From positions 1-33,041 of the forward strand of contig PGXR01000002.1 in NCBI GenBank assembly GCA_002839245.1: a stretch of DNA of 33,041 nt, given 5' to 3'. The notes beneath the pieces were generated by a model. That model ran no database searches and had not been told where the DNA came from. It saw nothing but the letters and a program-made list of their open reading frames with translations. Positions 4,154-33,041 of the stretch are shown here, piece by piece. Origin of the DNA: Spirochaetae bacterium HGW-Spirochaetae-7 (lineage in GTDB: Bacteria; Spirochaetota; Spirochaetia; Treponematales; UBA12059). Numbering within the stretch: the stretch's first letter is position 1; each line of letters opens with the position of its first letter. Made by a program: the position numbers and the translations under genes.

Positions 4154-4172
4154 TCATGCCATCGATATAACA

Positions 4173-4203
4173 AGCTTACTACCGTAGTTGAGTACGGAGT
4201 CAA
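4173..4203 (-). promoter_or_regulatory. mer operator/promoter: TTGACT-19 bp-TAAGCT
   Basis: Minus strand reads TTGACTCCGTACTCAACTACGGTAGTAAGCT. The 19-bp spacer and CCGTA...TACGG dyad are hallmarks of MerR-controlled promoters, close to the Tn501-type mer operator. Confidence 0.9.
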
Positions 4204-4208
4204 ATGAG

Positions 4209-7117: not shown

Positions 7118-7150
7118 TGACGTACCCCAAACAACACTAAGGAGAACTAC

Positions 7151-7702: not shown

Positions 7703-7716
7703 CCTTGGAAAAGCGG

Positions 7717-7742
7717 GGGCGGCGGGAAATGACCCGTCGCCC
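7717..7742. terminator. Stem-loop between convergent genes, candidate bidirectional terminator
   Basis: GGGCGGCGGG-AAATGA-CCCGTCGCCC, 10-bp arms with one G.U-compatible mismatch; no clear U tract. Confidence 0.5.
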
Positions 7743-7751
7743 TGAATCGAG

Positions 7752-10960: not shown

Positions 10961-10979
10961 GCTTGGGGAGGGTGTGGCC

Positions 10980-14456: not shown

Positions 14457-14656
14457 GGTTCGGGTTGATGATAATCGCAAGCCACACATGAAGCAAGGGC
14501 GGAATAGGTAAGACGAAGCCGACTTGCAGCGTCAACGATACAACTGCGCTGGAATGGAGTCTTGAGGATGGGCATTGGTGGGCGGTTTGTAAAGTTCGAT
14601 CCGGTTCATGGCGGTTTCCGCGCGGAGACCCTATGCCCCCGCATGAGAAAGGACCC

Positions 14657-15763: not shown

Positions 15764-16693
15764 ATGCGCAAGAAGGTGATCGTTGACTGCGACAACACCA
15801 TGGGAATGCCGTACGGTGAGATCGATGACGGCCTGACCCTGTTGTACCTGCTGGGACGCGATGACATCGACTTGGTGGGCATCACCAACTGCTACGCGAA
15901 CTCGTCCCTCAAGAGCGTGGAGTATTGGACCGAACGCTTTCTCTGCGAAATCGACAGGACCGACATCCCGAGGTTTTCAGGCAAGCCGTTCTGCGGCCAA
16001 AATTGTACCGAATGGTTCGAGAAGACGTGGGGGCACCATTTCAACGATGAAAAACCGGACGGGAGCAGTCCGAGCGATGCCGCCATCTTCCTGGCGGAGC
16101 AGGCGGACAAGTACCCTGGCCAGATTCACGTGCTGGCTCTCGGTTCGATGACCAACCTGTACGAGGCGGCCGAACTCGACGAGCGGTTTTTCTCGAATCT
16201 TGCCGAGATCGTCCTCATGGGCGGCGTCCACGGGGACCTGCTTCTGAATGAGTGCGCATGCGTCGAGCTCAATCTCGCCTGCAATCCAGCTGGCGCTTAC
16301 CGGGTCTTGAACAACGGCGCTTGTCCCGTCGTAATCATGAACGCCAACATTTGCCTGCAGGCCCCATTCACCGAAAAGGACATGGGCAGGATCTCGTTCT
16401 GGCCGGAAGGCCGCCGGAGAATGGTCCGCGAATGGCTTGGAGTTTTCGGCGGAACATTCTACCTTTGGGATCTTCTTCCTGCCGTATACCTGTCCCATCC
16501 CGAGCTCTTCGATCTCAAGAGCGCACGCATCGCTTCAAGCCTTTCCGATCTTGAGCGGGGAATTCTCGTCACCGGGGATTATGGCGCTGAAGTGACCATG
16601 CCCGACAACATCCTCGATACCGGCCGCTTCATGGACATCATACAGTCGGCTTGGTACGCGGCATGGCAGAAGGAGAAAAACGGTTCCGAATAG
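15764..16693 (+). CDS. Nucleoside-hydrolase (IunH)-family protein, divergent
   Basis: VDCDNTMGMPYGEIDDGLTLLYLLGRDDIDLVGIT, LALGSMTNLYEA, LMGGV, NLACNPAGA, WDLLPAVYLSHPELF. Confidence 0.88.
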   Translation: MRKKVIVDCDNTMGMPYGEIDDGLTLLYLLGRDDIDLVGITNCYANSSLKSVEYWTERFLCEIDRTDIPRFSGKPFCGQNCTEWFEKTWGHHFNDEKPDGSSPSDAAIFLAEQADKYPGQIHVLALGSMTNLYEAAELDERFFSNLAEIVLMGGVHGDLLLNECACVELNLACNPAGAYRVLNNGACPVVIMNANICLQAPFTEKDMGRISFWPEGRRRMVREWLGVFGGTFYLWDLLPAVYLSHPELFDLKSARIASSLSDLERGILVTGDYGAEVTMPDNILDTGRFMDIIQSAWYAAWQKEKNGSE

Positions 16694-16774
16694 AGTCGCT
16701 TTATGATGACAGGTTTCGTTCCGGCCGCTGCTTCTGCAGCAGGCTAAGTCATTATCGATGGCAAGGAGGCTTCA

Positions 16775-18007
16775 ATGCATCGGAAAATCGGTATCGCATT
16801 GTTCTCGCTATTGTTCCTCGTTTCCTTCACGGGAGCTCAGGCGCAGTTCGAGAAGAGCTACATGCAGATGTCATGGGACCAGATCGTGGCCGAAGCCAAG
16901 GGGCAAACCGTCTATTACTACGCCTGGGGTGGCAGCGAGACCATCAACAGTTTCATCAACGGCTACTTCAAGGATCGCCTCGCGCAGAAGTACGGAGTGA
17001 CCCTCAAGCTCGTTCCCGTTACCGACGCTACCACGTACGTGAACAAGGTACTGGGCGAAAAGCAGGCCGGGAAGACGTCCGGGGGCTCCGTGGACCTCGT
17101 CTGGACGAACGGCGAGAACTTCAGGACGATGAAGCAGGGCAACCTGCTCTTCGGACCGTACCTGGACAAGCTCCCGAACGCCAGGTACTACAACGAAGGC
17201 AGCACCGCGTATGATTTCGGCTATCCTGTGGAGGGATTCGAATCACCCTTCGGGTCCGCGCAGGTGGTGATGGAATACAATTCCAAGTACGTGCCGAACC
17301 CGCCCAGGACCATTGCTGAACTCGTAGCCTGGGTCAAGAAGAATCCCGGCAAGTTCACCTACGCGGCGCCGCCCGATTTCACGGGTAGCGTGATCGTCCG
17401 CCATTTCTTCTACGCCAACGCCAACAATCTCGGCGAGTTGATGGGACCCCTCAACGCCTCGGTCTACTCGAGGGTAGCCGCGAAGACCTGGACAATGCTG
17501 AACGACATCGAGCCGTACCTCTGGATGGGCGGCAAGACCTATCCTGAAAACAGCATCAAGTCGCAGGAACTGATCGGCAACGGCGAGATCTGGATCAGCT
17601 TCGAATACGGCCCGAAAGGCGCCGAGTCGAGGATCACCAAGGGAACGTATCCTTCGACCATCAAGACCGCGGTCCTCGATACGGGCACCATAGGAAACAC
17701 CAACTTCCTCGCGATTCCGTTCAATTCCGGAGTCAAGGCGGCGGCGATGCTGGCGTGCAACGAGATGCTCGATCCCGAGGTGCAATACAAAGCGAGCCTC
17801 TCCTCCGACCAGGGAGGAATGTCCTGGATGTCGCCCCTCGACATCACGAAGGTACCACGCGACTGGGCGGTGAAATTCGACGCCCTGCCAAGGCACCCCT
17901 CGACCCTGTCCGGCGAAGTCCTGAATTCCCACAAGGTGTCAGAGTTGATGGCAGATTGGCTCGTCAAGATCGAAAAGGACTGGCAAGCGGAAGTGCTGAA
18001 GAAATAG
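16775..18007 (+). CDS. ABC transporter substrate-binding protein, YnjB-like
   Basis: Signal peptide; VYYYAWGGSETINSFINGYF, GGSVDLVWTNGENFRTMKQGNLLFGPY typical of YnjB-like SBPs. Confidence 0.85.
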   Translation: MHRKIGIALFSLLFLVSFTGAQAQFEKSYMQMSWDQIVAEAKGQTVYYYAWGGSETINSFINGYFKDRLAQKYGVTLKLVPVTDATTYVNKVLGEKQAGKTSGGSVDLVWTNGENFRTMKQGNLLFGPYLDKLPNARYYNEGSTAYDFGYPVEGFESPFGSAQVVMEYNSKYVPNPPRTIAELVAWVKKNPGKFTYAAPPDFTGSVIVRHFFYANANNLGELMGPLNASVYSRVAAKTWTMLNDIEPYLWMGGKTYPENSIKSQELIGNGEIWISFEYGPKGAESRITKGTYPSTIKTAVLDTGTIGNTNFLAIPFNSGVKAAAMLACNEMLDPEVQYKASLSSDQGGMSWMSPLDITKVPRDWAVKFDALPRHPSTLSGEVLNSHKVSELMADWLVKIEKDWQAEVLKK

Positions 18008-18028
18008 CCCGCTTGGCATAAAATCGCG

Positions 18029-18065
18029 CCGCCCGTATAGTCGACAGGATATGCTATGCGGGCGG
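18029..18065 (+). terminator. Intergenic stem-loop between SBP and permease genes (attenuator/mRNA stabiliser candidate)
   Basis: CCGCCCGTATAG-13 nt-CTATGCGGGCGG; 12-bp arms with one G.U-compatible position, followed by TTCTTCATTTT. Confidence 0.75.
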
Positions 18066-18090
18066 TTCTTCATTTTCGACAGGAACACCG

Positions 18091-18951
18091 ATGACCAAGA
18101 GAACCACCATCGTACTCCTCCTCTTTCCGACCATCTCCGTGCTCGTGCTGCTGTTCCTCGGCGGCCTGGCGATGGGCCTGATGCAGAGCTTCGGGTACAT
18201 GCCGCTGATCGGCATGAACGATTTCAACATCGACGCGTACGGCAGCCTGTTCGGTGACCAGGAATTCCTCCTGAGCCTCGCCCTCACGCTCTGGATTTCG
18301 ATCAGCTCAACTCTGCTGACGATGGTCCTCGCGATCATCACCGCGCTGGCCTTCAGGAAGACCTTCTCCGGCAAGCGGATAGCGAATTTCCTGTATCAGT
18401 TCCCGATCACCATACCGCATATCGTGATCGCCGTGGGAACATTGCTCGTCTTCTCGCAGAGCGGCATGGCGGCGAGGTTCGCGCACCAGGCAGGATTGAT
18501 CGCCGACCAGAACCAGTTTCCGGTCGTAGTCTCGGACAAGCTCGGGCTGGGCATCATCTACGTATACCTGTGGAAGCAGATCCCCTTCGTCGGCGTCATC
18601 GTACTTTCGATACTTCAAGCAATGGGAAACAATTACGAGGAGCTTGCCAGGTCCCTGGGAGCCAGCAAGTGGCAGGCCTTCCGCCATGTGCTCCTGCCGA
18701 CCATCATACCGGGCATCCTTCCGGCGAGTATCATATGCTTCTCGTTCACCTTCGGGTCGTACGAGGTTCCCTTCCTGCTGGGAAGACCGTATCCGACTGT
18801 CATTTCAGTACTCGCCATGCGCCTGTACCAGGACGTGGACCTGAACGCCAGGCCCCAGGCGATGGCGACCGCCGTCTTCATGGCCGCCTTCATCAGCATC
18901 ATGGTCGTACTCTACAAGCGGCTGCTCGGCAAGATGTCGGGAAGAAGGTAA
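18091..18951 (+). CDS. ABC transporter permease (YnjC/PotB-like)
   Basis: Binding-protein-dependent permease EAA-like loop: NNYEELARSLGASKWQAFRHVLLPTIIPG. Confidence 0.9.
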   Translation: MTKRTTIVLLLFPTISVLVLLFLGGLAMGLMQSFGYMPLIGMNDFNIDAYGSLFGDQEFLLSLALTLWISISSTLLTMVLAIITALAFRKTFSGKRIANFLYQFPITIPHIVIAVGTLLVFSQSGMAARFAHQAGLIADQNQFPVVVSDKLGLGIIYVYLWKQIPFVGVIVLSILQAMGNNYEELARSLGASKWQAFRHVLLPTIIPGILPASIICFSFTFGSYEVPFLLGRPYPTVISVLAMRLYQDVDLNARPQAMATAVFMAAFISIMVVLYKRLLGKMSGRR

Positions 18952-18954
18952 AGA

Positions 18955-19776
18955 ATGGATATCGAGGATACGAAGGCAAGTCCGCTTCATTGGATAGTCT
19001 ACATCGGCGTGATAGTCTCGGTCCTGGGGCCGTTGATACCGCAATTCATCTGGCCATTCGCCAAGAGCTGGTTCTTTCCCGACCTTCTGCCATCGGTCTG
19101 GAGTGTGCGGGCCTGGGAGTATATCGCCAATCCCAACAGCCAGGTCCTTGAGGCCGTATGGAACAGCCTCGTGATAGCGGTGCTAGTCACGTGCATCTCG
19201 GTACTGCTCGGCGTACCCGCGGGAAAAGCCCTGGGGATGTACCGTTTCAGAGGGAAGGGCCTGGTCGAGCTATTCATACTGGCTCCGTCCATCATCCCTG
19301 GCCTGGCGGTGACGATGGGTATCCATGTCGTCTTCATACGGCTCGGACTGTCGGATACCCTACTGGGAGTCGTGCTCGTGCATCTCATACCTACCATCCC
19401 GTACATGACGATCAGCATGAGCGGCATCTTCGCGAATTACGACCCGGATTTCGAGGAACAGGCCAGGAGCCTCGGGGCTTCGACCTTCAAGACCTTCTTC
19501 ATAATCACGCTACCGGCGATATTCCCCGGGATCGTAACCGGAGCGATGTTCGCGTTCCTCATTTCATGGGGCCAGTACCTGCTCACGGTATTGATCGGGG
19601 GCGGGCGCGTGATAACCCTGCCACTGCTGCTCTTTTCCTTCGCCGCCAGCAGGGACAACGCCTTCATGAGCGCGTTGAGCATCATCTTCCTGCTTCCCGC
19701 GATCATCATCCTCTTCTTCACGAGCAAATTCCTGTCCGGCAAATCCAGCAGCATGGGGGGCTTCGGTACCATATGA
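18955..19776 (+). CDS. ABC transporter permease (YnjC/PotC-like)
   Basis: EAA-like loop DPDFEEQARSLGASTFKTFFIITLPAIFPG. Confidence 0.9.
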   Translation: MDIEDTKASPLHWIVYIGVIVSVLGPLIPQFIWPFAKSWFFPDLLPSVWSVRAWEYIANPNSQVLEAVWNSLVIAVLVTCISVLLGVPAGKALGMYRFRGKGLVELFILAPSIIPGLAVTMGIHVVFIRLGLSDTLLGVVLVHLIPTIPYMTISMSGIFANYDPDFEEQARSLGASTFKTFFIITLPAIFPGIVTGAMFAFLISWGQYLLTVLIGGGRVITLPLLLFSFAASRDNAFMSALSIIFLLPAIIILFFTSKFLSGKSSSMGGFGTI

Positions 19777-20816
19777 CCTCGATAACGTTAAGGAAGCTCT
19801 GCAAGACCTACGAAGGCAGCAAGCACCCCGCCGTCGAGAACTTCGATCTCGAGATAGAACCCGGGGAACTGGTGGCCTTTCTCGGGCCGTCGGGCTGCGG
19901 CAAGACCACGACACTCAAAATGATAGCCGGACTCCATTCGGTGACCAGGGGCGACGTCCTGTTCAACGGCGTACGCGTGAACGACATCAAGCCGGAGAGG
20001 CGCGAGGTCGTGATGGTCTACCAGAATTACCTCCTGTTCCCTTATATGAACGTCGCGGAGAACGTCGGTTTCGGACTGCGGATGCGGAAGACCCCGAAAG
20101 ATGAAACCGACCGACGGGTCGCCGAGATCCTGAAGCTGGTACAGCTCGAAGGCTACGGGCATCGTAGCTCCGCGCAGCTTTCCGGCGGGCAGAAACAGCG
20201 GGTGGCCCTGGCCCGTGCACTGGTGATACGCCCGAAAATCCTCCTCCTAGACGAGCCTCTGGCAAACCTCGACGCACACCTGCGCGATGAGATGCGCGAC
20301 CTGATCCTCGACATACACAAGAAATTCGAGGTGACCACGGTCTTCGTCACCCACGACCAGGAGGAGGCTGTTCTCCTCGCCGACCGCATCGCTCTGATCT
20401 TCGACGGCAAACTCGTCCAGTACAGCCACTCGAAGGATTTCTACGAGAAGCCGGCCAGCGAGAGGATTTCCAGGTTTTTCGGCAACGGCAACATCATCGA
20501 GGGTACGAAGGCGGGAACCACGGTCACGACTGGTTCCGGCGCCTTCCAGGTAAGGCCCGGCCTTCCCGCCGCCGACGGCCCCGTGCAGCTGGTGATCAGG
20601 CCGGAGTCGATCAGGTTGTCGCGCGAGGAATCCAACAGCTTCAAGGCGTTGATACTGAAGAAGATATACATGGGAACCTATACCCGATATTGTTTCGAAG
20701 CGGATGGACATATATGGGATACGACCACGGAGTCGAACGAGATACCGGGCTACGAAGCCGGAGATTCCGCGTGGTTCACGCTGCCGCAGGACAAGATATG
20801 GCTGATAGAACGCTAG
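19773..20816 (+). CDS. ABC transporter ATP-binding protein
   Basis: Walker A GPSGCGKTTT, signature LSGGQKQRVALARAL, Walker B ILLLDEPLANLD, TOBE-like C-terminus. ATGA overlap shows the true start is 19773, not 19158. Confidence 0.95.
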   Translation: MTSITLRKLCKTYEGSKHPAVENFDLEIEPGELVAFLGPSGCGKTTTLKMIAGLHSVTRGDVLFNGVRVNDIKPERREVVMVYQNYLLFPYMNVAENVGFGLRMRKTPKDETDRRVAEILKLVQLEGYGHRSSAQLSGGQKQRVALARALVIRPKILLLDEPLANLDAHLRDEMRDLILDIHKKFEVTTVFVTHDQEEAVLLADRIALIFDGKLVQYSHSKDFYEKPASERISRFFGNGNIIEGTKAGTTVTTGSGAFQVRPGLPAADGPVQLVIRPESIRLSREESNSFKALILKKIYMGTYTRYCFEADGHIWDTTTESNEIPGYEAGDSAWFTLPQDKIWLIER

Positions 20817-22237
20817 GTCCGGCTTCCGCCGGCCCGCTTACTATCGGCCTCGCGGGATTGCATTTTCCCGTGATGGGAGCAAGGGAACATGGCATCTTCG
20901 AGACGGCCGTCGCCCTCGTCGAACGGACCGGGCAAGCGGAACGCTGCGGGGTGGTTTCGTGGCCGGAGCTGCTGTCTACGACCGAAGACGCGGTAAAGGC
21001 GGCGCGCTACTTCGGGGAGCAGGGCATCGACTTCCTCCTGGTCCAGGCCTCGTCGCTGGCGATGGGCGACACGATCGCCCCCCTCGTGGAAAACTTCGAC
21101 AGGCTTGGCGTTTGGGTAGTCGACGAGCCGACGTACGACGGCGAACTGCCCCTGAACTCCCTGACCGGTTACAACCTCTGCGTCTCGAAGATCCGCAACC
21201 TGTATGGGGAGCGGAAAAAGCTCAAGTGGTTCTGGGGCGCGGGAACCGATTTCGAGGCGCGGCTTGCCGCGACAATCCGGTCGCTGGCCGCGCTCAAGTC
21301 GCTGCGCGGGAGCAGGATAGCCTCCATCGGCGGCGTCGTCCCGACCTTCGACAACCTTGAATACCGGCGGGGTTCGTTCGAGAAATCGCTCGGGGTCCAG
21401 ATCGTCGAGGTGCCCCTCGGCAGACTGTTCGAAGCCGCTGAGAAGGCACCGCCTGCCGCGCTCGAGCCGATTCGCGCGACGCTCGTTTCCCAGGCACGAT
21501 GCATCCGGGTCGGAACCGACCTCGTCGACGATACCGCCAGGATATGCTATGGACTGCAATCCATTCGATACGAAGAAAACCTCGATGCCTGCGCCCTCCG
21601 CTGCTGGCCTGAATTCCAGGAGTGGAAGGGCATCGCGCCATGCGCCGCCGTCGCCTGGTCGAACGACCATTGCATGCCAGCGGCCTGCGAGGGCGATACG
21701 CCGGGCGCGGTGGCCATGTTGCTGGGGTCCATCCTCTCCGGCACGGCCGCGACCATGAACGATCCGGTAGCGCTCGACCGCAAGACGGCGACGGTCCAGA
21801 TGTGGCACTGCGGCCCGGGTCCGGCCTCGTGGGCCGATGCCGAAGGCCAATGCCTCGACTATCACCACACCCTCAACAGGAGGTCGGAACCCGGTTCGCC
21901 GCGCGCGGGCGTCTCCTCCGACATCCGTTTCGCGAACGGACCGGTAACCATGCTGAGAATTCGTGCGGGCGGCGACAGTCACTTCGTCCTCGAGGGAGAG
22001 GTCGTGTCGGGACCGTCCGCACCGTATCCCGGAAGCGGCGGGTGGATCGGCAATCTTCGGATGAGCGACAAGCCGGTGTCGCTTGAGGACCTGCTGCAGA
22101 TGATGGCCGAGTATGGACTGGAACACCACTACCCCGTCATGCGGGGGCATCACGGATCCGTACTTACCGAAATGGCGGCATGGGCCGGCTGGAAAATCCT
22201 GCCGCGCATCGATTCGACCGAACACGTGCTCGCATGA
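20798..22237 (+). CDS. L-fucose/L-arabinose isomerase-like protein
   Basis: GLHFPVMGAREHGIFETAVALVERTG..., EQGIDFLLVQASSLAMGDTIAPLVE, AAVAWSNDHCMPAACEGDTPGAVAMLLGSILSG. Confidence 0.75.
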   Translation: MADRTLGPASAGPLTIGLAGLHFPVMGAREHGIFETAVALVERTGQAERCGVVSWPELLSTTEDAVKAARYFGEQGIDFLLVQASSLAMGDTIAPLVENFDRLGVWVVDEPTYDGELPLNSLTGYNLCVSKIRNLYGERKKLKWFWGAGTDFEARLAATIRSLAALKSLRGSRIASIGGVVPTFDNLEYRRGSFEKSLGVQIVEVPLGRLFEAAEKAPPAALEPIRATLVSQARCIRVGTDLVDDTARICYGLQSIRYEENLDACALRCWPEFQEWKGIAPCAAVAWSNDHCMPAACEGDTPGAVAMLLGSILSGTAATMNDPVALDRKTATVQMWHCGPGPASWADAEGQCLDYHHTLNRRSEPGSPRAGVSSDIRFANGPVTMLRIRAGGDSHFVLEGEVVSGPSAPYPGSGGWIGNLRMSDKPVSLEDLLQMMAEYGLEHHYPVMRGHHGSVLTEMAAWAGWKILPRIDSTEHVLA

Positions 22238-22250
22238 GAGAAGGAACGGT

Positions 22251-23942
22251 ATGGAAATGACCCATCGCGCATTGCATGACGGAATCCTCGGTTGCCTGCT
22301 GGGCTCGGCGACCGGGGACGCGATGGGAGGACCGGTCGAGGGCCTTCACTTCTCCGACATACAAGCGCGGCTCGGGGTCGTGGACCGCATGCTGCCTTAC
22401 CCCGAATCGATTCCGCCCTCCTTCCATGGCCCCTTCGGATCGCGGGCCGGAGACTATACCGACGACACCCGGCTGGCCAAGTTGATTTGCGCCGGCCTCA
22501 TCCCAAGCGGCGGATCACCCAGGGCAGGCGACATCAACAGTGCCATCTGCGGCGCCTATTTCAGGACAGGATCCGTGCTCGAGCGGGGCTTCCTGGAGGA
22601 ATACGCGCTCAAGGGCCTGTACGGCCACGGCAAGGAAGCCTTCGGGGGCAAGCCGACCAATGGCGCGATCATGGCGATAGCACCGGTCGGCGTCCTCTTC
22701 CCGGGCGATCCGGGCAGGACCTTCGATACGGCTTTCGATATCCTCCCGATGGCGACCGGATCGGCGCGAACGAGCGCGGCCATCGCGGCGGCCTGCATCA
22801 GCGTAGCGCTTGCCGGGAAGGGGACGGCACTCGACGTGGTGATGCGGGGCGTTGAAGCAGCCGAGGGCAGGATGCACCGGACCGAAGGACCGTACTGGCA
22901 CCACGGGAGGATGTATCCGCGAGTAGGCGCCTGGGTTTCCGACTTGGCCAGGAAGGCCGTCGCGATAGCAGCGGAATGCATGGATCCCCTGGACGATGCA
23001 TTCAGGAAACGCCTGCATGCCGAAGTGGGACAGCCGTTCTTCGCGGATGGGGATGAGACCCTCGCCATCGCCCTGGCTATGTTCGTTGCCGCGAAAGGCG
23101 ATTTCAGGGCCTCGGTCATCGGTGCCGTCAATTACGGCAAGGATTGCGACAGCTACGCGGCCGTCGCGGGCGCCCTTGCTGGCGCGTTCAACGGTCTTCA
23201 GGTGATTCCGCATGACTGGATCGCTTCGGTCGAGGCCTGCGAGTCCCGTCCGACCCTTCGTTACCTCGGCGAGGGGCTGTGTTCCATGATCGCCTCGCGG
23301 CTGAGGCGGGAACGGGACGCGGTGGCCATCATCGGCTTCCCGGATTCGCCCGCGCCGGGGAAAAGCGGGTTGCTTGAGGCCGTGCGATCGAAGGATCATG
23401 AATCCGTTGAAAGGCTCCTCGATGAGGGAGCCGACATGTACGAGACCGGCGAGCACGGCAGGAACAGCCTGCACGTCGCGTGCGCCGCAGGCTCCTTAGG
23501 GATCGCCAGGACACTCCTGCTGTACGGCGCCGATATCAACGCCAAGGACGACAACAGGACGACCGCCCTGCATTTCGCCGCCTGGGAAAACCACCTCCCG
23601 ATCGTCGACCTCCTCCTGGATTGGGGCATCTTCGCCGAGGAGACCGAAGGCGCCGGCTGGACGGCTCTCCATGACGCCGTACGGAAGGAATTCGCCGATA
23701 TTCCGCTGCGTATCCTGGCCAAGTCCCGAGGACTTGCCGGTGAGGCCGAGCTGGCCGCTAAACTGCAGTCGTTGCACGGCGAAGAGCGGTTCCTGGAATT
23801 GCTCCGCATCCTCGCCGAGTATCACATCGATCTGGGGGCCATCGGCATCTGTGGCCATGGACTGCTGCACGACGCGAAAAGCAGGGGCTATCCGCGAGCG
23901 ACAGAATATCTGCTCTCCAAGGGCGTTGCCGATGAAGAATAG
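22251..23942 (+). CDS. ADP-ribosylglycohydrolase (DraG/ADPRH) family domain fused to C-terminal ankyrin repeats
   Basis: GCLLGSATGDAMGGPVEG, YTDDTRLAKLI, NYGKDCDSYAAVAGALAGAFNG; ankyrin repeats GRNSLHVACAAGSLGIARTLLLYGADINAKDDNRTTALHFAAWENHLPIVDLLLDWG. Confidence 0.9.
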   Translation: MEMTHRALHDGILGCLLGSATGDAMGGPVEGLHFSDIQARLGVVDRMLPYPESIPPSFHGPFGSRAGDYTDDTRLAKLICAGLIPSGGSPRAGDINSAICGAYFRTGSVLERGFLEEYALKGLYGHGKEAFGGKPTNGAIMAIAPVGVLFPGDPGRTFDTAFDILPMATGSARTSAAIAAACISVALAGKGTALDVVMRGVEAAEGRMHRTEGPYWHHGRMYPRVGAWVSDLARKAVAIAAECMDPLDDAFRKRLHAEVGQPFFADGDETLAIALAMFVAAKGDFRASVIGAVNYGKDCDSYAAVAGALAGAFNGLQVIPHDWIASVEACESRPTLRYLGEGLCSMIASRLRRERDAVAIIGFPDSPAPGKSGLLEAVRSKDHESVERLLDEGADMYETGEHGRNSLHVACAAGSLGIARTLLLYGADINAKDDNRTTALHFAAWENHLPIVDLLLDWGIFAEETEGAGWTALHDAVRKEFADIPLRILAKSRGLAGEAELAAKLQSLHGEERFLELLRILAEYHIDLGAIGICGHGLLHDAKSRGYPRATEYLLSKGVADEE

Positions 23943-24804
23943 ACGCAGGGTGATCGTGGATTGCGACAATACCTACGGCCTTCCCGGGCTTCCGATCGAT
24001 GATGGCCAGACAATCATGTACCTGGCAGGACGCGACGACATTGAAATTGTCGGCATCACCTGCACCCACGGGAATGGGCAGGTTTCAGAGGTATACGACG
24101 CGACTCGGTGGCTTCTCGGGGCACTCGGTCTAGGAGACATTCCCGTGCTTAAGGGGGCCTCGGGGCCGGGAGACTTCGAAACCGAAGCCGCGGACTGGCT
24201 TGCCCGGATAATCGATGCCGAGCCCGGCAACCTGGATCTCCTCGCGATCGGCACCATGACCAACCTGCTGGCCGCGCAGCGGAAGAATCCCTCGTGCCTC
24301 TCCATGCTGCGGAGCATCACGGCGATGGGTGGCTACCTGTACCCCCTTCCGGTCCGCGGCTGGAACAGGATAGGCGAGGTCAATCTGTCCCGCGATCCGG
24401 AGGCCACCGCGGCGCTCCTCCACGCAAGCTGCCCGGTGACCGTGATGAGCGCCCAGATCTGCTTGCAGGCGCCGTTCGGCATAGACGAGCTCGCCCCTAT
24501 AGCCGAAAGCGACAGGGCTTCGTATCAATATATGCTGAGCTACCTCCTGGGCATGATACGCCGGCACGGAGGCGCCCAGGAATACCTCTGGGACTTGCTG
24601 CCTGCGGTATACCTGTCACACCCCGAATTGTTCCATCGGAATGAGGTTCGCATATCCACCGATCCAGCCACCCTCTCGGGAGGCTACCTGCTGAAGAGCG
24701 AAACGGGAACCCGGATCAACCTGCCGGATTACATTGTCGACATCGACGCGCTGTACGCCTATCTCTACGCGGCCTGGAAACGGGCTCCTCTCAAACCAAT
24801 CTAA
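23932..24804 (+). CDS. Second divergent nucleoside-hydrolase (IunH)-family protein
   Basis: VDCDNTYGLPGLPIDDGQTIMYLAGRDDIEIVGIT, LAIGTMTNL, AMGGYLYP, WDLLPAVYLSHPELF. Overlaps preceding stop. Confidence 0.88.
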   Translation: MKNRRRVIVDCDNTYGLPGLPIDDGQTIMYLAGRDDIEIVGITCTHGNGQVSEVYDATRWLLGALGLGDIPVLKGASGPGDFETEAADWLARIIDAEPGNLDLLAIGTMTNLLAAQRKNPSCLSMLRSITAMGGYLYPLPVRGWNRIGEVNLSRDPEATAALLHASCPVTVMSAQICLQAPFGIDELAPIAESDRASYQYMLSYLLGMIRRHGGAQEYLWDLLPAVYLSHPELFHRNEVRISTDPATLSGGYLLKSETGTRINLPDYIVDIDALYAYLYAAWKRAPLKPI

Positions 24805-24810
24805 GGCGGC

Positions 24811-26040
24811 ATGAAGATGAAGCATGGATTGCCTTATGGGGACGGAGAAATCGAGGTCGAACTTCCGGATGACCGTCTGGATTGGATTGTCGCCGAGCGA
24901 GTCCCCGAACGCGACGAGCTGCCCATCGTTCTGGCCGCCATCGATGGCGCCGAACCCGGACTGCTGGAATTCCTCGGGCGGAGCGCCTCGGTGGCGGTCG
25001 TCGTCTCCGACCACACCCGCAACACCGGCAGCCGGACATACATGCCGATCCTCCTCGACCGGATCCGGATGCCGGGGCGCAGGATCACGGTCGTCGTGGC
25101 GCTGGGCCTGCACAGGCCGTCAACCGACTCGGAGATCGCCACGATACTCGGCTGTATTCCGGACAAGGACGTGGATATAATCAACCACGATCCCGACGGG
25201 AACCTCGAGGCATGCGGACAAGGCACCTTCTGCAAGGCGGTGGTAGAAGCGGACAAGGTGATACTCACCGGTTCGGTTTCCTTCCACCCCATGGCTGGAT
25301 ACTCAGGCGGATGGAAGAGTCTGCTGCCGGGAATCGCGTCCAGGGCCTGCGTGCTCGACAATCACCGGCTGTTCTTCTCCGGCGACAAGCGGCACCCGGG
25401 CGTCGGACCGGCCCGCGTCGAGCTCAATCCCGTGAGCATGGACATTCGGTCGCGAACGCGCGGCTTCGCCGGGAAGACCTGGTGCCTGAATGTCGTCCAG
25501 AGCGAATCCAAGGCGATAGTGTTCGCCACCGCGGGCGGCGTCGACGATGCGTGGACCGCCTGCTGTGGCTACCTCGAACGCATGAACTCTCCCTCCATCC
25601 GTCGCCTGTATCCGGTTGTCGTGGCGTCGTCGGGGGGGTATCCATCCGATTTCAGCTTTTATCAAAGTATGAAGACTCTGACGAACGCATCCCGCGCCTG
25701 CGTCAAGGGAGGGAGCATCTATCTGGCGATGGAGTGCCGGAACGGCTGGGAGCTCGACGAATCCGTGCTCTCGTGGAGCCGAGACAGTCTCGATACCATC
25801 GCGACTCGCCTGCGGAAGGAATTTTCGATGAGCGGGCTCGCGATGCACATGGCCCTGTCGGTCATAAGGGATCATTCGATCGCATGCCTCTCCTCCCTGC
25901 CGGAACAGGAAGTGTGCGGGATGGGTATGCGATACCTGGCCTCGGCGGCCGATCTCGGGAAGGCCGTGGCTGCCGAGGATGCCGATCGCATCGCCGTCAT
26001 TCCCGCGGCGGCGGCGACGCTTCCCGCGCTCCGTAGATGA
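24811..26040 (+). CDS. LarA-like nickel-pincer-nucleotide-dependent 2-hydroxyacid racemase/epimerase homolog (DUF2088)
   Basis: SDHTRNTGSR, ALGLHRPST, SFHPMAGYSGGWKSLLPGIASR, DNHRLF, GGYPSDFSFYQSMKTL; the His/Lys positions expected for LarA are present. Confidence 0.88.
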   Translation: MKMKHGLPYGDGEIEVELPDDRLDWIVAERVPERDELPIVLAAIDGAEPGLLEFLGRSASVAVVVSDHTRNTGSRTYMPILLDRIRMPGRRITVVVALGLHRPSTDSEIATILGCIPDKDVDIINHDPDGNLEACGQGTFCKAVVEADKVILTGSVSFHPMAGYSGGWKSLLPGIASRACVLDNHRLFFSGDKRHPGVGPARVELNPVSMDIRSRTRGFAGKTWCLNVVQSESKAIVFATAGGVDDAWTACCGYLERMNSPSIRRLYPVVVASSGGYPSDFSFYQSMKTLTNASRACVKGGSIYLAMECRNGWELDESVLSWSRDSLDTIATRLRKEFSMSGLAMHMALSVIRDHSIACLSSLPEQEVCGMGMRYLASAADLGKAVAAEDADRIAVIPAAAATLPALRR

Positions 26041-27071
26041 CGAGTGAAAGGAGCAACAAGGATATGGGCCATGGAGGCGATGGATTGCATGCGCGTGGAT
26101 TCTCGGTACTGGGAATGAGGATAAGGCTCGATTCCAACAATTACGAACTTCTTTCCGATGATGAATATTTCCAGGGGAAAGGAGCCCAGCTTCATTCCTT
26201 GCTGTCGAATTTCGGCAGGCTTGACGAGCTCCCGGACGAGGGGGAATTCGACCTGCGCGTGTCCCTCGTCGACGACCCACGATACCCGCCCATGCTGTAC
26301 CGTGAATGCACCGGCGCATACAGCATCACTGGATCCCTCGTGGATTGCGAACGCGCCGCGATTGACAAAAGGGCGAGCGTATTCGGCAACATGGGCCTCT
26401 TCTCGAAACTGCTGGTCAGGGAACTGGAATTCCGGGGCATCTATTCGATCCACTCGACCTCGTTCTACGAGCGCGCCCGGAACAGGCTGTACGTGGTGAT
26501 GGGCGGATCGGGCTCCGGCAAGAGCACGGTCCTCTTGAACGCGCTCTCGGTCGGGGGGATCGAAGTCTTCGGCACTGAACTCACGCACTTCTCGTTCGGG
26601 AATGGCGCGACGAGGATGCTCAAGGGGTCGCTGTGGCAGAATTGCAGGATGGGGAACCTTATGTTCGATTTTCCCTGGCTCATGGAACGCTTCGGCCTGA
26701 AGCCGCCCACAGGTGATCCGTGGCACAGCTATCGATCGATTCCGCTGCTCGAGCAGCAGGTTCCCGAGGAGCACCTCGACGACGCCTCGATCGTGCTCGT
26801 CATGCCACGGATCGAGGGAGAACGTCATACCTCGATCCGCCGCGGACTCCTGCCTGGCTCGTTGCGGTTCCCGCTGTTTCAGAACCTGTCGGACAAGGTG
26901 ACGCCACCCACGCTCCTGTGGGGCAAGCACTTCATTCCGTCCGTCGATACGCCCGACAGGCAGACGGCCAGGATGGAAGCCGCGACCAGGTTCATCGAGG
27001 AGGCCCCGATAGTCGAATGCTGGGACGTTCTGTCATCGCCCAATGATTGCCTGACCGGAATTTTCCCGTGA
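26037..27071 (+). CDS. HPr kinase-like (HprK C-terminal-like) P-loop protein, putative small-molecule kinase
   Basis: SIHSTSFYERARNRLYVVMGGSGSGKSTVLLNALSVGGIEVFGTELTHF has HprK-like fold context and Walker A; no HPr/PTS gene nearby. Confidence 0.65.
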   Translation: MTSERSNKDMGHGGDGLHARGFSVLGMRIRLDSNNYELLSDDEYFQGKGAQLHSLLSNFGRLDELPDEGEFDLRVSLVDDPRYPPMLYRECTGAYSITGSLVDCERAAIDKRASVFGNMGLFSKLLVRELEFRGIYSIHSTSFYERARNRLYVVMGGSGSGKSTVLLNALSVGGIEVFGTELTHFSFGNGATRMLKGSLWQNCRMGNLMFDFPWLMERFGLKPPTGDPWHSYRSIPLLEQQVPEEHLDDASIVLVMPRIEGERHTSIRRGLLPGSLRFPLFQNLSDKVTPPTLLWGKHFIPSVDTPDRQTARMEAATRFIEEAPIVECWDVLSSPNDCLTGIFP

Positions 27072-27135
27072 GACCCTTGATGGACCTCGCGCCTGGAACC
27101 CTTGGACCATGTTCGATCATCGTAGGAGGAATTCA

Positions 27136-27957
27136 ATGAACGAGACAGTGAAGAAGGGAATGGACGGCGTGTATCCATTCCCCGTTTCCGGCAGGGCCGG
27201 CCAGCCCCGCTCCACGGGGCTGACCATGGTCATCGACATGGGCAGCGGCCTGGCCGCGACTCAGGACCTCTTGGACTATGCCGGCTATTGCATCGACATG
27301 TTCAAGCTATCATCCGGAACGATGGCCTTGTATCCCGACCCGATACTCCGGCGGAAGGTGGAGTTGATCCGGTCCCGGGGCATCGAGGTGGAGGCGGGCG
27401 GTTCGCATTTCGAGGTCGCGAACTGGAAAGGCGCGAGCACGAAGTATTTCAGGAAGCTGGTCGAACTCGGCGTGGATGTCGTGGAGATCGCCGACGGTCA
27501 TTTGCCCCTCGCGGACAGCGTCCGTATCGACCGGATCAAGGAAGCGAAGGACCTGGGCCTGAAGGTGGCAACCGAGGTAGGCAAGAAGGAACCGTCGAAG
27601 AACCTAAAGGCACAGACCATCCTGGAACAGTACCGCGAGAACATCGACGCCGGCAGCGATTACATCATCATCGAAGGCAAGGCTTCCGGCATGGACGTCG
27701 GAATATTCGATGAAAAGGGCAACATCGACGAATCGGAGCTGGCCGAGATAACCTGTGGAATTTCCGATATGGGCAGGGTGATATGGGAAGCGCCGCTACG
27801 GCCCCAGCAGCAGGCGCTGATCCTGCGATTCGGCCCCAATGTGAACCTCGGGAACATTTTTCCACAGGAGGTCTACCCCCTCGAACTGCTTCGCAACGGG
27901 CTCATGCTGTCACCGCTCATCGAAGCGTACAAGCGCGAACGGGGGGAGTCAAAATGA
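27136..27957 (+). CDS. Phosphosulfolactate synthase (ComA) family protein
   Basis: GLTMVIDMGSGL, DMFKLSSGTMALYPDPILRRKVELIRSRGIEVEAGGSHFEVA, VVEIADGHLPL, KVATEVGKKEPSK, YIIIEGKASGMDVGIFDEKGNI, IWEAPLRPQQQALILRFGPNVNLGNI. Confidence 0.92.
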   Translation: MNETVKKGMDGVYPFPVSGRAGQPRSTGLTMVIDMGSGLAATQDLLDYAGYCIDMFKLSSGTMALYPDPILRRKVELIRSRGIEVEAGGSHFEVANWKGASTKYFRKLVELGVDVVEIADGHLPLADSVRIDRIKEAKDLGLKVATEVGKKEPSKNLKAQTILEQYRENIDAGSDYIIIEGKASGMDVGIFDEKGNIDESELAEITCGISDMGRVIWEAPLRPQQQALILRFGPNVNLGNIFPQEVYPLELLRNGLMLSPLIEAYKRERGESK

Positions 27958-28781
27958 AACTGACGGTTTCCGAACTGGAATGCAAGGCCCGGGAACTGAG
28001 ACTGGACTCCATCGAGATGATAGCGCAGGCGGGAGGCGGCCATCTCGGGGGCTCGCTGAGCGCCATGGACATCATGACCGCGCTGTATTTCAACGTCATG
28101 CGAATCGATCCGGAACATCCGATGAAGGCCGACCGGGACAGGTTCATCCTGTCGGCGGGCCACAAGGCCGCAGGCTACGTGCCCGTGCTCGCCGCGCGGG
28201 GGTATTTCTCAAGGGACCTGCTGCCGACGTTCAACAAGCTCGACAGCCGGTTCGGTATGCATCCCGACATGCACAAGATTCCCGGCTGCGACGCGTCCAC
28301 GGGCAGCCTGGGCCACGGCTTGCCGGTCGGGCTGGGCATGGCGCTGGCGCTCCGGCTCGACGGATTCGACAGCAAGGTGTTCGTGCTCCTGGGCGACGGC
28401 GAGCTGCACGAGGGCACCAACTGGGAGGCCGCGATGGGGGCGGCCCAGCACAAGACCTCGAGCCTGGTCGCCATCGTCGACTACAACAAGTGTTCCATGG
28501 ACGGCCCGATAGACCAGGTCGTCTCGCTCGAACCGCTGGTCGACAAGTGGAAATCATTCGGGTGGGAGACCATCCGCATCGACGGCAACGACATGGCGCA
28601 GGTGCTCGGGGCGCTCAAGGAGGCGGCCGATCGAGGCAATCGAGGCAACCCGGTGGTCATCGTCGCCGATACGGTCAAGGGCAAGGGCGCGGCCTTCGCC
28701 GAGGGCGACTACCGCTGGCATTACGGCTGCCCGAGCGAAGATCAGCTGGCTGAAGCCAGAACGGCGCTGGGAGGCGAGTGA
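27954..28781 (+). CDS. Transketolase N-terminal (TPP-binding) subunit
   Basis: GGGHLGGSLSAMDIMTALYF, LSAGHKAAGYVPVLAARGYF, STGSLGHGLPVGLGMALALR, GDGELHEGTNWEAAMGAAQHK; ATGA overlap with ComA-family gene. Confidence 0.95.
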   Translation: MKLTVSELECKARELRLDSIEMIAQAGGGHLGGSLSAMDIMTALYFNVMRIDPEHPMKADRDRFILSAGHKAAGYVPVLAARGYFSRDLLPTFNKLDSRFGMHPDMHKIPGCDASTGSLGHGLPVGLGMALALRLDGFDSKVFVLLGDGELHEGTNWEAAMGAAQHKTSSLVAIVDYNKCSMDGPIDQVVSLEPLVDKWKSFGWETIRIDGNDMAQVLGALKEAADRGNRGNPVVIVADTVKGKGAAFAEGDYRWHYGCPSEDQLAEARTALGGE

Positions 28782-28782
28782 C

Positions 28783-29748
28783 ATGGCTGGATTGAGCATG
28801 GCCGACATCGAGAAGATGTCCGCCCGGGACGCCTTCGGGCTGGCATTGTCTGAAATCGGCGCGGAAAACGTAAACGTCGTCCTTCTGGGAGCGGATGCCA
28901 TCGGGTCTACGCGGGCAGCGGGATTCGCGAAGCGATTTCCCGACCGGACCTTCAATTTCGGGATCGCGGAACAGGAGATGATCTCGGCCGCCGCCGGGTT
29001 CGCCGCTTGCGGCAAGATACCCGTGGCGACCGCCTACGGCTTCCTCATCTCGCTCCGGGCCTGCGAACAGGTCCGGTCGGACATCTGTTACCCGAACCTC
29101 AACGTCAAGCTGATGTCGACGCATACCGGTCTCACCATGGCGGAGGCGGGAACGACCCATCACTCCACCGAGGACATCGCCATAATGCGCAGCTTCGCGA
29201 ACATGACGATAGTCGCTCCGTCGGATTCCGTGGAGACGGTCAAGGCGGTCAGGGCCGTCATCGACTACCCGGGTCCGGTCTACCTACGGATGGGACGGGG
29301 CGAGACCGAATCCGTCAACCGCGGGGATTACGAGTTCGTCATCGGAAAGGCGATCACGCTGCGCGAAGGCACAGCGGTCACCATCATCGCCTGCGGCATC
29401 ATGGTAGCGGAGGCCCTGAAGGCGGCCGCGAAGTTGTCGTCGGAAGGCGTTTCCGCGCGCGTGATCAACATGCACACGATCAAACCCCTTGACGTCGAAG
29501 CAGTACTGCGCGCGGCCAGGGAGACAGGAGCCATCGTGACGGCGGAAGAACATACCGTGATAGGCGGATTGGGCGAGGCCGTCGCCGGGGTCGTCTGCGA
29601 GAACTCGCCGGTTCCAGTGGTGAAGGTCGGCTTGAATGATTGCTACGGAATCATCGGACCGGAAGACATGGTCAAGCAGAGGCTCGGCCTCGACGCTGAA
29701 TCGATTTTCAAGGCGGCGAAGAAGGCGATCCTGCATAAAGTCGATTGA
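28783..29748 (+). CDS. Transketolase C-terminal subunit
   Basis: PDRTFNFGIAEQEMISAAAGFAACGKIPVATAYGFL, MSTHTGLTMAEAGTTHHSTEDIAIMRSFANMTIVAPSD, VTAEEHTVIGGLGEAVAGV. Confidence 0.95.
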   Translation: MAGLSMADIEKMSARDAFGLALSEIGAENVNVVLLGADAIGSTRAAGFAKRFPDRTFNFGIAEQEMISAAAGFAACGKIPVATAYGFLISLRACEQVRSDICYPNLNVKLMSTHTGLTMAEAGTTHHSTEDIAIMRSFANMTIVAPSDSVETVKAVRAVIDYPGPVYLRMGRGETESVNRGDYEFVIGKAITLREGTAVTIIACGIMVAEALKAAAKLSSEGVSARVINMHTIKPLDVEAVLRAARETGAIVTAEEHTVIGGLGEAVAGVVCENSPVPVVKVGLNDCYGIIGPEDMVKQRLGLDAESIFKAAKKAILHKVD

Positions 29749-29762
29749 TCGGGAGGTACGCG

Positions 29763-31601
29763 ATGGTTGGCGGATATTGGCTCAAGGCGCTGAGGGTCGA
29801 GCTTGATACTGGAATCGTTCGTGACGAGGCCCTGGACGAGGGCCTGGCCAGAGCCTGCATCGGCGGCGCGGGTTTTGCAGCCCACTTCCTCTCGCGAGAG
29901 GTCGGCCGGGACGTCGCGGCCAGGTCTCCGGAGAATCTGCTGATATTCGCGACCGGCCCCTTCCAGGCGATGAAGATGCCTGGCGCCGCGAAGTTTTCTA
30001 TCTGCACGCGATCCCCGCTGACCGGGACATTCACCGACTCCGCGGCCGGGGGCGATTTCGGCTTCGCCTTGAAGCATAGCGGCTATGACCTCGTCATCGT
30101 CTCCGGGCGGAGCGGGACGCCTGTCTATGTCCACGTATCCGACGGGACCGCCAGGATACTACCCGCGGTCGACCTGTGGGGCAAGGATACGATCGACACC
30201 TACGGGATACTCGCAGCAAGGCATGGCGGAGCCTCCGTTGCCGCCATCGGCTCGGCGGGCGAGAACGGCGTGGCCATGTCATGTGTCTATGTCGACGGGT
30301 ACTCGGCCGCCGGCCGCGGCGGGACCGGCTGCGTGATGGGCTCCAAGAACCTGAAGGCCCTGGTCGTCTCCGGAACCCTCGAAGTGCCGCTAGCGGACAG
30401 GACGAGGGTCGAGGACCTCGAGAAACGTTACAGGAAGTCGATCGCCGGGACGGCGGCGGGTTTAAGGGAAGGCGGGACCGTCGGCGGACTCGTCCCCGGC
30501 GAGGAATCCGGCAACCTTCCGCTACGGAACTGGAGCCAGACGGGGTGGAAGGAAGGGGCCGGCAAGATAGGATACCCCGGGTATTCCTCGCTCAACAACA
30601 AGCTCCATCCATGCACGTATTGCACGATTTCGTGCCACCGGCGATCGGACGTTTCCTTCCCCGACGGTTATTCGTACAAGGGGCCGGCTCCGGAATACGA
30701 GACACTGGCGATGCTCGGCGCCTGTTGCCTCGTCGACGACCTTGAGTCGCTGGTGAAGGCGAACGATCTGTGCAACCGAGCCGGCCTCGATACCATGAGT
30801 TCAGGCGGATGCGCCGCCTTTGCCATGGAAGCCCTGGAGAAGGTTCATACGAACGGGCATCTTCCCGCGTATCCGCTGACCTGGGGCGATGGCGACGGTC
30901 TGCTGAAATTCATCGGCGAGCTGGCGGGTCGAACGGGATTCGGGGGCCTGTTCTCGGAGGGAATAGTCCCGGCCGCCAGTCGCTTCGCGCCGGAAGCCGC
31001 CGCCTACGCGCATCATGTCAAGGGCCAGGACATTCCGGCTCATGATCCGCGGGTCTATTTCAACCTCGGCTTGTCCTACGCGACGGGCAATCGGGGCGCC
31101 TGCCACATGAGGGCGTATTCCCAGATCGCGACGATGGGAGCCTTGTTGCCGGAGGTCGGCATCGACGTCGCCCCGGCGCCGGACACGCTCGAGGGAGCCG
31201 CCCATGTCGTCAAGACCTACCAAGACTTTACGTCATTCTACAATTCCTGCGTGCTGTGCCAGTTCATGATCTGGGGCGGGCTGAGCCTGGGTGACATGAC
31301 CGACTGCCTGAACGCCATTACCGGCTGGCGGATGGAACCCCGGGACGTCATGGAATGCGGGGAGAGGGTCTTCACCATCCAGCGGGCGTTGAATACCAGG
31401 TGGGGAATTTCACGGAAGGACGACACCCTTCCAGAACGGTTCTTTACGGCCGCTTCGGCGGGACCCCGGGCCGGCAAGGCTCCCGACAGGGATCGATTCG
31501 CCGCCGAGCTTTCCGAGCTGTACCGGCTCCGCGGCTGGGACCAGGATGGCCTCGTCACCGCGGAGACCAGCGACCGCCTCGGGTTGGCGTCATGGATGTA
31601 G
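29763..31601 (+). CDS. Aldehyde:ferredoxin oxidoreductase (tungsten AOR family)
   Basis: FATGPFQAMKMPGAAKFSICTRSPLTGTFTDSAAGGDFGFALKHSGYD, AAGRGGTGCVMGSKNLKALVV, Fe-S ligand region CTYCTISC plus distal NSCVLC. Confidence 0.93.
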   Translation: MVGGYWLKALRVELDTGIVRDEALDEGLARACIGGAGFAAHFLSREVGRDVAARSPENLLIFATGPFQAMKMPGAAKFSICTRSPLTGTFTDSAAGGDFGFALKHSGYDLVIVSGRSGTPVYVHVSDGTARILPAVDLWGKDTIDTYGILAARHGGASVAAIGSAGENGVAMSCVYVDGYSAAGRGGTGCVMGSKNLKALVVSGTLEVPLADRTRVEDLEKRYRKSIAGTAAGLREGGTVGGLVPGEESGNLPLRNWSQTGWKEGAGKIGYPGYSSLNNKLHPCTYCTISCHRRSDVSFPDGYSYKGPAPEYETLAMLGACCLVDDLESLVKANDLCNRAGLDTMSSGGCAAFAMEALEKVHTNGHLPAYPLTWGDGDGLLKFIGELAGRTGFGGLFSEGIVPAASRFAPEAAAYAHHVKGQDIPAHDPRVYFNLGLSYATGNRGACHMRAYSQIATMGALLPEVGIDVAPAPDTLEGAAHVVKTYQDFTSFYNSCVLCQFMIWGGLSLGDMTDCLNAITGWRMEPRDVMECGERVFTIQRALNTRWGISRKDDTLPERFFTAASAGPRAGKAPDRDRFAAELSELYRLRGWDQDGLVTAETSDRLGLASWM

Positions 31602-32431
31602 GCGTTCATGTTTCGCTGTGGACCCCGGAATGGACCAGCCCCTTTCTCGACGGGATCGACAAGGCGGCAGACCTGGGATGTAGTTGCGTGGAGATACCGC
31701 TGATGGATCCGGCCAATTTCCCGCTCGATGACACAAGGCGGCGTCTCGCCGCGAACGGGCTCAGTGTCTACTGCGGCACCGGCCTGAGCAAGGAAACCGA
31801 TATCGGCAGCTCAACCGAATCGATACGCGAAAACGGCATCCGCCACCTGAGCGAATGCCTCCGGCTCTGCGCCGAGCTCGGCAGCGATTCACTCGGGGGG
31901 GTCATCCATTCACCTTGGGGCCTGAAGGGGCGCGCCGATCCAGGATATTCCCGGCGCGTCGCCTCGTCGCTCGCCCGGCTCGCGGACTTGGCAGCGAAAA
32001 ATGGCACGTCGCTGGCGCTGGAGTGCATCAACCGCTACGAGAACTCCTTCCTGAACACCGTGGACCAGTGCCTGGCTCTTCTCGGGATCATCGGCAGGGA
32101 AAACGTCGGCCTGCATCTTGATACCTATCATATGAACATCGAGGAGAGCGGGATGGTCGCGGCCATGACGAGGGCCGGCGCCAGGCTCCTCAGGTTGCAC
32201 TTGAGCGAGAACACGAGGGGATATCCGGGATCGGGGGCACTTGCCTGGGACGAGATCATCGCCGCCGCTAAGGCCTCCGGCTATAAGGGGCCTTGGATAC
32301 TGGAAAGTTATGTGCAGCCGGATTTCCCGGCTTCATCGGATGTCTGCGTCTGGAGACCCATCGAGCCTGACAGTTCCGAAAGCCTGCGTCGTTCTATCGA
32401 TTTCATCAGGGAGCTTGTTTCGGCCGATTGA
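31592..32431 (+). CDS. TIM-barrel sugar isomerase/epimerase (DTE / xylose-isomerase-like family)
   Basis: SLALECINRYENSFLNT, VGLHLDTYHMNIEESG, LRLHLSENTRGYPGSG, WILESYV; these match the metal-ligand pattern of D-tagatose/psicose 3-epimerase-like proteins. Confidence 0.88.
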   Translation: MDVGVHVSLWTPEWTSPFLDGIDKAADLGCSCVEIPLMDPANFPLDDTRRRLAANGLSVYCGTGLSKETDIGSSTESIRENGIRHLSECLRLCAELGSDSLGGVIHSPWGLKGRADPGYSRRVASSLARLADLAAKNGTSLALECINRYENSFLNTVDQCLALLGIIGRENVGLHLDTYHMNIEESGMVAAMTRAGARLLRLHLSENTRGYPGSGALAWDEIIAAAKASGYKGPWILESYVQPDFPASSDVCVWRPIEPDSSESLRRSIDFIRELVSAD

Positions 32432-32519
32432 GCAGCGTTTGAAGTATGGAATATGATGCATCGTAACCACCGGAATTCGCGGACTGATCATCGTGCGAGA
32501 AGCCATTCGGAGTATAGCC

Positions 32520-33041
32520 ATGCGTAGTGATGTCAAGATGACGGAATCGGAAAACTCGCCCCTGTACAAAATAGCGTACCACAACCTCCGGGAAGCCATC
32601 CTGAACGGCCAGCTTCCGCCGGGAACCAAACTGGTCGAGCAAGCCATCTCTACCCAGATGGCGATAAGCAAGACTCCAATCCGCGAGGCGATACGCGAAC
32701 TCGCCCAGGAAGGGCTCATCCTTTTCAAGGCCAGGCGTGGCATCACTGTCATCGATTTTACGGAGAAGGATATCAACGAGCTGGTCACCCTGCGATCCAG
32801 CCTCGAGGTACTCGGAGTACGCCTGGCGCACGAAAACCTGGTCGAGGACGATTTCTTCACGTTGCGCGCCATCCTGGACAGGATCGTCGCCGCCGAGAAG
32901 GCCCACGACTATGCGGGACTTTCGGATCTCGATATCGAGTTCCACCAGTTCATCATCGAGAAGTCAGGCAACAAGCGGCTGGTCAAGGCATGGAAGGATA
33001 TCGCGTCCCAGATGAACGTTCTTTTTCGCATGATCCGCTAC
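32520..33041 (+). CDS. GntR-family (FCD/FadR subfamily) regulator, 3' end outside window
   Basis: ATG 32520 then MRSDVKMTESENSPLYKIAYHNLREAILNGQLPPGTKLVEQAISTQMAISKTPIREAIRELAQEGLILFKARRGITVIDF, open to window end. Absent from the ORF track because it has no stop in the window. Confidence 0.92.
   Translation, partial: MRSDVKMTESENSPLYKIAYHNLREAILNGQLPPGTKLVEQAISTQMAISKTPIREAIRELAQEGLILFKARRGITVIDFTEKDINELVTLRSSLEVLGVRLAHENLVEDDFFTLRAILDRIVAAEKAHDYAGLSDLDIEFHQFIIEKSGNKRLVKAWKDIASQMNVLFRMIRY

Follow-up and report, generated by a model that had tools for sequence, protein, structure and literature searches.

A ComA-family enzyme in a conserved spirochaetal operon: a candidate PEP-forming lyase in a proposed route for 5-substituted ribosides

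The open reading frame at 27136-27957 (+) of the window, the whole 33,041-nucleotide stretch of Spirochaetae bacterium HGW-Spirochaetae-7 DNA analysed here, is a genuine ComA-family TIM barrel within a tight one-strand operon. With somewhat less than even confidence, we read this operon as a transketolase-based, mostly non-phosphorylated route for the catabolism of an imported riboside bearing a substituent X on carbon 5 of its pentose, with ComA as a PEP-forming lyase and X most likely a neutral sulfur group. The wider proposal is more tentative still: a new anaerobic pathway for 5-substituted ribosides via transketolase, in which ComA, after neofunctionalisation, would cleave a C-S bond to form PEP and free methanethiol or another non-sulfite group, and a PEPCK-fold gene would encode a new 2-hydroxyacid 2-kinase. 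If true, this would be a complete route in which a C-S (or C-X) bond is cleaved without oxygen or radicals and the phosphorylation energy is banked as PEP. The ComA family would acquire a catabolic role, the PEPCK fold a new small-acid kinase and a LarA racemase a place in a defined pathway, and a source of methanethiol or sulfite would be defined for anoxic habitats.

The ComA-family gene and its operon

The ComA-family gene encodes 273 amino acids and is open throughout. A good Shine-Dalgarno-like sequence, GTAGGAGG, lies directly 5' of 27136, the start codon is backed by homologous starts in three related loci (L003-L005), and the gene overlaps the next one downstream by 4 bases. An earlier note had assigned it to the ComA family on its signature blocks; the blocks EVGKK, IIEG...GIFDEKGNI, EAPL..QQ and FGPNVNLGNI are literally present, and the match to Pfam ComA (PF02679, E 7e-74; 248.8 bits, cut-off 25.2) bears the assignment out. 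The four quoted blocks are intact, but further strand-end blocks are altered, and the score against TIGR03849 (arch_ComA) is 266.5 bits, below the equivalog cut-off of 280. The predicted barrel found 1QWG as its best PDB match (Foldseek E 1.2e-20, TMt 0.79; model mean pLDDT only 70.7). This is the sole ComA in its own genome.

Fifteen genes on the forward strand, never more than 83 bases apart, extend from 15764 to 32431, and a GntR/FadR-type regulator gene then follows (32493-33041, +, running off the window, start at 32493 or 32538), with an orthologue beside the operon in L003 and L004. The first gene encodes an IUNH-family ribosyl (nucleoside) hydrolase (15764-16693; PF01156, E 1.2e-32), which is also the operon's first gene in L043. 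Next come the importer genes, for a YnjB-like ABC substrate-binding protein (16775-18007; NF008633, 443 bits, cut-off 203), permease A (18091-18951; 65-66% identity to its L003/L004 counterparts), the PotC/WtpB-like permease B (18955-19776; 70% identity to its counterparts there) and an ATPase (19773-20816; PF00005 and TOBE_2). The gene neighbourhood that the earlier note described was partly as stated: a kinase-like gene (26037-27071) lies directly upstream of ComA and the two transketolase subunits, N-terminal (27954-28781; PF00456, E 2.4e-44) and C-terminal (28783-29748; PF02779/PF02780), directly downstream, but ComA is separated by 6.3 kb from the importer upstream and by about 4.5 kb from the GntR gene downstream, all within the same gene run. 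An APH-fold kinase gene at 14633-15694 (+), 69 bases 5' of the operon, has a weak match to S-methyl-5-thioribose kinase (48.5 bits). It was dropped as an operon member, being absent from three related genomes, and the L003 operon begins at the first IUNH gene.

When the window ComA was scanned against 85,462 species genomes, three relatives were found, all spirochaetal. Searches of its own order and phylum, including a 395-genome sample of the phylum, gave no further copy, and the clade therefore rests on four genomes. From its absence in that sample, we consider this ComA rare and probably acquired horizontally. The gene set is common to the four spirochaete genomes in differing orders, with one known from a short contig alone: L003 has the window order, in L004/L042 the genes recur in another arrangement and the GntR gene is divergent, and the short contig L005 carries LarA-AFOR-epimerase-kinase-ComA. 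The kinase gene is directly upstream of ComA in all four loci. That gene content is kept despite the shuffled order is strong evidence for a single pathway.

Several local variations were also observed. In L003, the isomerase gene (3827-4423) is shortened to 198 amino acids, and a third, degenerate IUNH paralogue (6870-7763) has no DxD metal motif. Ankyrin repeats are part of the ADP-ribosylglycohydrolase in the window (22251-23942) and in L003 (4389-6011), but are missing from its counterpart in Sphaerochaeta UBA6084 (L042, 11402-12478). A ThiF/MoeB-like gene, perhaps serving the pterin cofactor of AFOR, adjoins the LarA/AFOR end of the operon in L005 (173-883) and L042 (6289-6984).

Proposed route from a 5-substituted riboside to PEP

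We infer the reactions, their directions and the identity of X as follows. The importer would bring in a riboside whose pentose bears X on carbon 5, and the ribosyl hydrolases would release free 5-X-ribose; these are the two PF01156 proteins, the second encoded at 23932-24804 (E 2.1e-34), and an ADP-ribosylglycohydrolase with C-terminal ankyrin repeats (22251-23942; PF03747, E 6.9e-39, and Ank). An aldose isomerase of the L-fucose-isomerase/SftI kind (20798-22237; weak PF02952) would give the 5-X-ribulose form, and a ketose 3-epimerase of the D-tagatose/D-psicose 3-epimerase family (31592-32431; 7dz5, E 3.9e-46; NF051856, 182 bits) would convert it to 5-X-xylulose. Transketolase would then shift C1-C2 onto an aldose phosphate and leave 3-X-lactaldehyde, which a tungsten-type aldehyde:ferredoxin oxidoreductase (AFOR; 29763-31601; PF01314, E 2.2e-104, and PF02730) would turn into 3-X-lactate. 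A LarA-like Ni-pincer 2-hydroxyacid racemase/epimerase (24811-26040; PF09861/PF21113) would invert the 3-X-lactate at C2, and the PEPCK-fold kinase would phosphorylate its 2-hydroxyl to 2-phospho-3-X-lactate. Finally, the ComA homologue, working in the PEP-forming direction, would release X- by beta-elimination and yield PEP. With methylthio as X, the substrate would be a methylthioadenosine-like nucleoside, and methanethiol would be released.

A C5 ketose fits because its cleavage by transketolase leaves a C3 aldehyde, matching PEP. As the C3 acid arises in this way from a C5 sugar, sulfoquinovose (C6) is unsuitable; it was rejected as a substrate, since it would give C4 and C2 products, leave LarA, the kinase and ComA unused and give the ribosyl hydrolases no role. 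Inversion at C2 is needed because transketolase leaves a D-glycero product and ComA works on an R-configured phospho-acid, and a LarA with the full residue set would explain that inversion. Sulfolactate metabolism likewise needs an S-to-R inversion (PMC12421959). Two other substituents were discarded: a hydroxyl (plain ribose via glycerate) makes the route needless, as an ordinary glycerate kinase and enolase suffice without racemase or ComA, and with hydrogen (5'-deoxyadenosine) ComA would have no group to expel.

The epimerase conserves the ketose 3-epimerase block DTYHMNIEE in the alignment to 7dz5, which would explain how the ribulo-sugar attains the xylulo-configuration needed by transketolase. 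The E-x-N motif, which makes contact with the 5'-OH in characterised members, is retained in the IUNH proteins, and a 5-substituted ribose is therefore not favoured on this point. These proteins also have Trp at the usual site of the general-acid His.

The kinase gene gave no Pfam or NCBIfam family match. Its product contains the P-loop GGSGSGKST, and the AlphaFold model (four sequences, pLDDT 74) matched ATP-dependent PEPCK in Foldseek (E 2e-8, TMq about 0.5), with HPr kinase lower in the list. A 2-hydroxyacid 2-kinase could be expected to have such a PEPCK/HPrK fold and to adjoin an enzyme that consumes 2-phospho-3-X-lactate, here ComA, and the protein may thus be a 3-X-lactate 2-kinase.

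The earlier note had proposed that ComA here runs in reverse as a desulfonating enzyme. Reverse, catabolic operation is likely, judging from the importer, ribosyl hydrolases, transketolase, AFOR, racemase, adjoining kinase and four-genome gene set, all of which suit PEP-forming use. The desulfonating part gained no support and is in part contradicted, given the residues of ComA and LarA described below and the lack of a siroheme sulfite reductase match in the four genomes.

Active-face residues and the leaving group

The window clade was set against eight ComAs from sulfite contexts, chosen by a coenzyme M or sulfolactate synthesis context or record (M. jannaschii, B. subtilis, Xanthobacter, Methylocystis, Legionella with its ComB neighbour, two Mycolicibacterium and Nocardioides). 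Active-face positions were taken as those where the barrel strands end C-terminally in the ComA model. Five changes occur in every one of the four clade members: W/F60S, T90S, S119A, R182K and E183A. The eight sulfite-context ComAs share T90, S119, R182 and E183 without exception and have an aromatic residue (W/F) at position 60; S119 recurs in each of the 14 other ComAs compared. In the window protein, the strand-end blocks G[WF]GT, GGT, EIS and RESG read SSGT, GGSH, EIA and KASG. The clade retains the core residues K57, E93, E117, D120, E147, K151, E180, E218 and N240, and it shares SG184-185, G121, P220 and EVGKK with the sulfite-type lineage. In the tree, it has 100/100 support and a long stem branch (1.73), is sister to XcbB1, and groups with the sulfite-type lineage, apart from ComA sequences of other contexts. 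Judged from its residues, the window ComA has the pattern of a sulfite-type ComA with a changed specificity rim. The earlier note had named loss of PEP- and sulfite-binding residues in a structure-based alignment as evidence against its reading; such a loss is seen in part, as rim residues that may contact sulfite are replaced and the core is kept.

The LarA-like protein has a complete set of NPN-binding and catalytic residues (R75, K184, H200, D72, H108, H174 and K298). Its specificity positions, defined from published sets (PMC7583248, PMC11770544), form a wholly hydrophobic side-chain pocket in each of the four operons: P-M follows the catalytic His, M precedes K298, and L-A/G occupies 358/359. 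For a dianion, polar or cationic residues would be expected here. Malate racemases hold the second carboxylate with H/Q-K at 358/359, and in Mar2 the catalytic His is followed by Y-K (PMC7583248, PMC11770544). The malate-racemase lysine is missing from all four operon LarAs, which have L-A or L-G at these positions. Within the LarA superfamily, the set P-M-M-L-A/G resembles hydrophobic-hydroxyacid racemases rather than malate racemases, and it matches neither the malate nor the lactate signature as published (PMC7583248, PMC11770544). Such a pocket does not predict a dianion such as sulfolactate; it does predict a thioether side chain. Of the four genomes, G578 was the one in which larC and larE, for NPN biosynthesis, were found; the window's own genome is 87.7% complete.

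These two independent residue tests, the ComA face and the LarA pocket, point away from sulfite, and as X we favour a sulfur group without charge, methylthio being the simplest, over a sulfonate. With a sulfonate, 5-deoxy-5-sulfopentose would pass through sulfolactaldehyde, sulfolactate and (R)-phosphosulfolactate to sulfite and PEP by reverse ComA action, a reading that we consider unlikely, though it survives best among the alternatives. To our knowledge, all characterised ComAs use sulfite, and XcbB1, the sister of the window clade, belongs to the bacterial coenzyme M operon; anion binding by K182 is also still conceivable. The sole curated match of the isomerase is to sulfoquinovose isomerase SftI (NF048012), at 121 bits against a cut-off of 700, and this nearest family keeps the sulfonate reading alive. 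Against it, however, stand the five active-face positions that are conserved in the sulfite-context ComAs and differ in the clade, and the hydrophobic LarA pocket without the malate-racemase lysine. Siroheme sulfite/nitrite reductase gave no match in the four, possibly incomplete, genomes, which counts weakly against a sulfonate, and we know of no abundant 5-sulfo-riboside. A TauE/SafE-family permease gene (10809-11837, +; 117 bits) upstream of the operon could fit sulfite release, but it lies outside the operon and the family, which is near-universal and has no firm link to sulfite export, was matched in 14 of 14 control genomes, for which reason the gene was given no weight. There is precedent for a split transketolase acting on sulfosugars in the sulfo-TK pathway (PMC12890257), and the stereochemistry agrees, as S-sulfolactate must become R (PMC12421959). 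O-acetylhomoserine sulfhydrylase, which could use methanethiol, was strongly matched in all four genomes, a weak point in favour of methylthio, as such matches are common and the genomes may be incomplete.

ComA homologues in five other loci (L012, L023, L024, L025 and L026), all annotated as phosphosulfolactate synthase, adjoin PrpF/PrpD, tricarballylate dehydrogenase, amidohydrolases or a CocE hydrolase and differ in rim residues. They are likely further subfamilies with a non-coenzyme-M function.

Next in probability, and also unlikely, is that the window ComA has drifted to another reaction of a phosphorylated C3/C4 acid, with an arsinoyl, phosphonate or halide leaving group or a hydratase/aldolase-type step, and that the kinase may act on another substrate. 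Relatives in unrelated contexts with other rim residues indicate that the family changes function, and the long stem branch agrees with this. On the other hand, SG184-185, G121, P220 and EVGKK are kept, the clade groups with the sulfite-type lineage and not with the other-context sequences, and the kinase-ComA adjacency and C3 logic suit PEP formation. It is very improbable that ComA runs forward, from PEP and a nucleophile, in an operon that builds a sulfonated or thio sugar: the known direction of ComA is synthetic and the transketolase, racemase and epimerase are reversible, but the importer with its binding protein, the ribosyl hydrolases, the GntR regulator and AFOR indicate uptake and oxidation, and the operon has no ComB-like phosphatase, unlike the Legionella pair. 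Partners of coenzyme M or sulfolactate biosynthesis (ComB, AspFum lyases) were found in none of the four operons and are present beside L007-L010, L021 and L022.

Comparison with known systems and nearby observations

The preferred reading, a PEP-forming ComA acting on a 2-phospho-3-X-lactate, shares parts with several known systems. The window protein shares the TIM barrel and core residues with the phosphosulfolactate synthases of M. jannaschii (1QWG, 37% identity), B. subtilis (YitD, 1U83) and Xanthobacter (XcbB1), but differs in its five active-face changes, its catabolic operon and a kinase in place of the ComB phosphatase. The sulfo-TK pathway (SqwGH) likewise uses transketolase on a non-phosphorylated substituted sugar after an aldose isomerase (PMC12890257), and the two-subunit transketolase is present in the window operon. 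Whereas sulfo-TK cuts a C6 sugar into C4 and C2 sulfonates and yields isethionate (PMC12890257), the window route would take a C5 sugar to a C3 acid and on through racemase, kinase and ComA.

The (R)-sulfolactate sulfolyase route of SlcC/ComC and SuyAB also leads from an aldehyde to a C3 acid, with C2 inversion and C-S cleavage (PMC12421959). SuyAB acts without phosphorylation and yields pyruvate (PMC12421959), whereas LarA, kinase and ComA would save the phosphoryl group as PEP. The DHAP shunts for methylthioadenosine and 5'-deoxyadenosine similarly handle 5-substituted ribosides, with methanethiol as a possible sulfur product, but use MtnP, MtnA and Ald2 to form DHAP and a C2 aldehyde (PMC5893883, PMC10986504); the window operon has none of the three. 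Our literature search found no phosphosulfolactate lyase, sulfolactate kinase or transketolase route for methylthioadenosine.

Two further features of the window lie outside the operon. ARAGORN called a tRNA-Asp with an odd anticodon, ATC, at 1656-1738 (-); it overlaps ORFs and is probably a false positive. The gene at 8256-9674 (-) encodes an unusual fusion of DUF2769, a 2Fe-2S ferredoxin domain and the catalytic domain of an adenylate/guanylate cyclase, and its product may be a cyclase that senses redox state.
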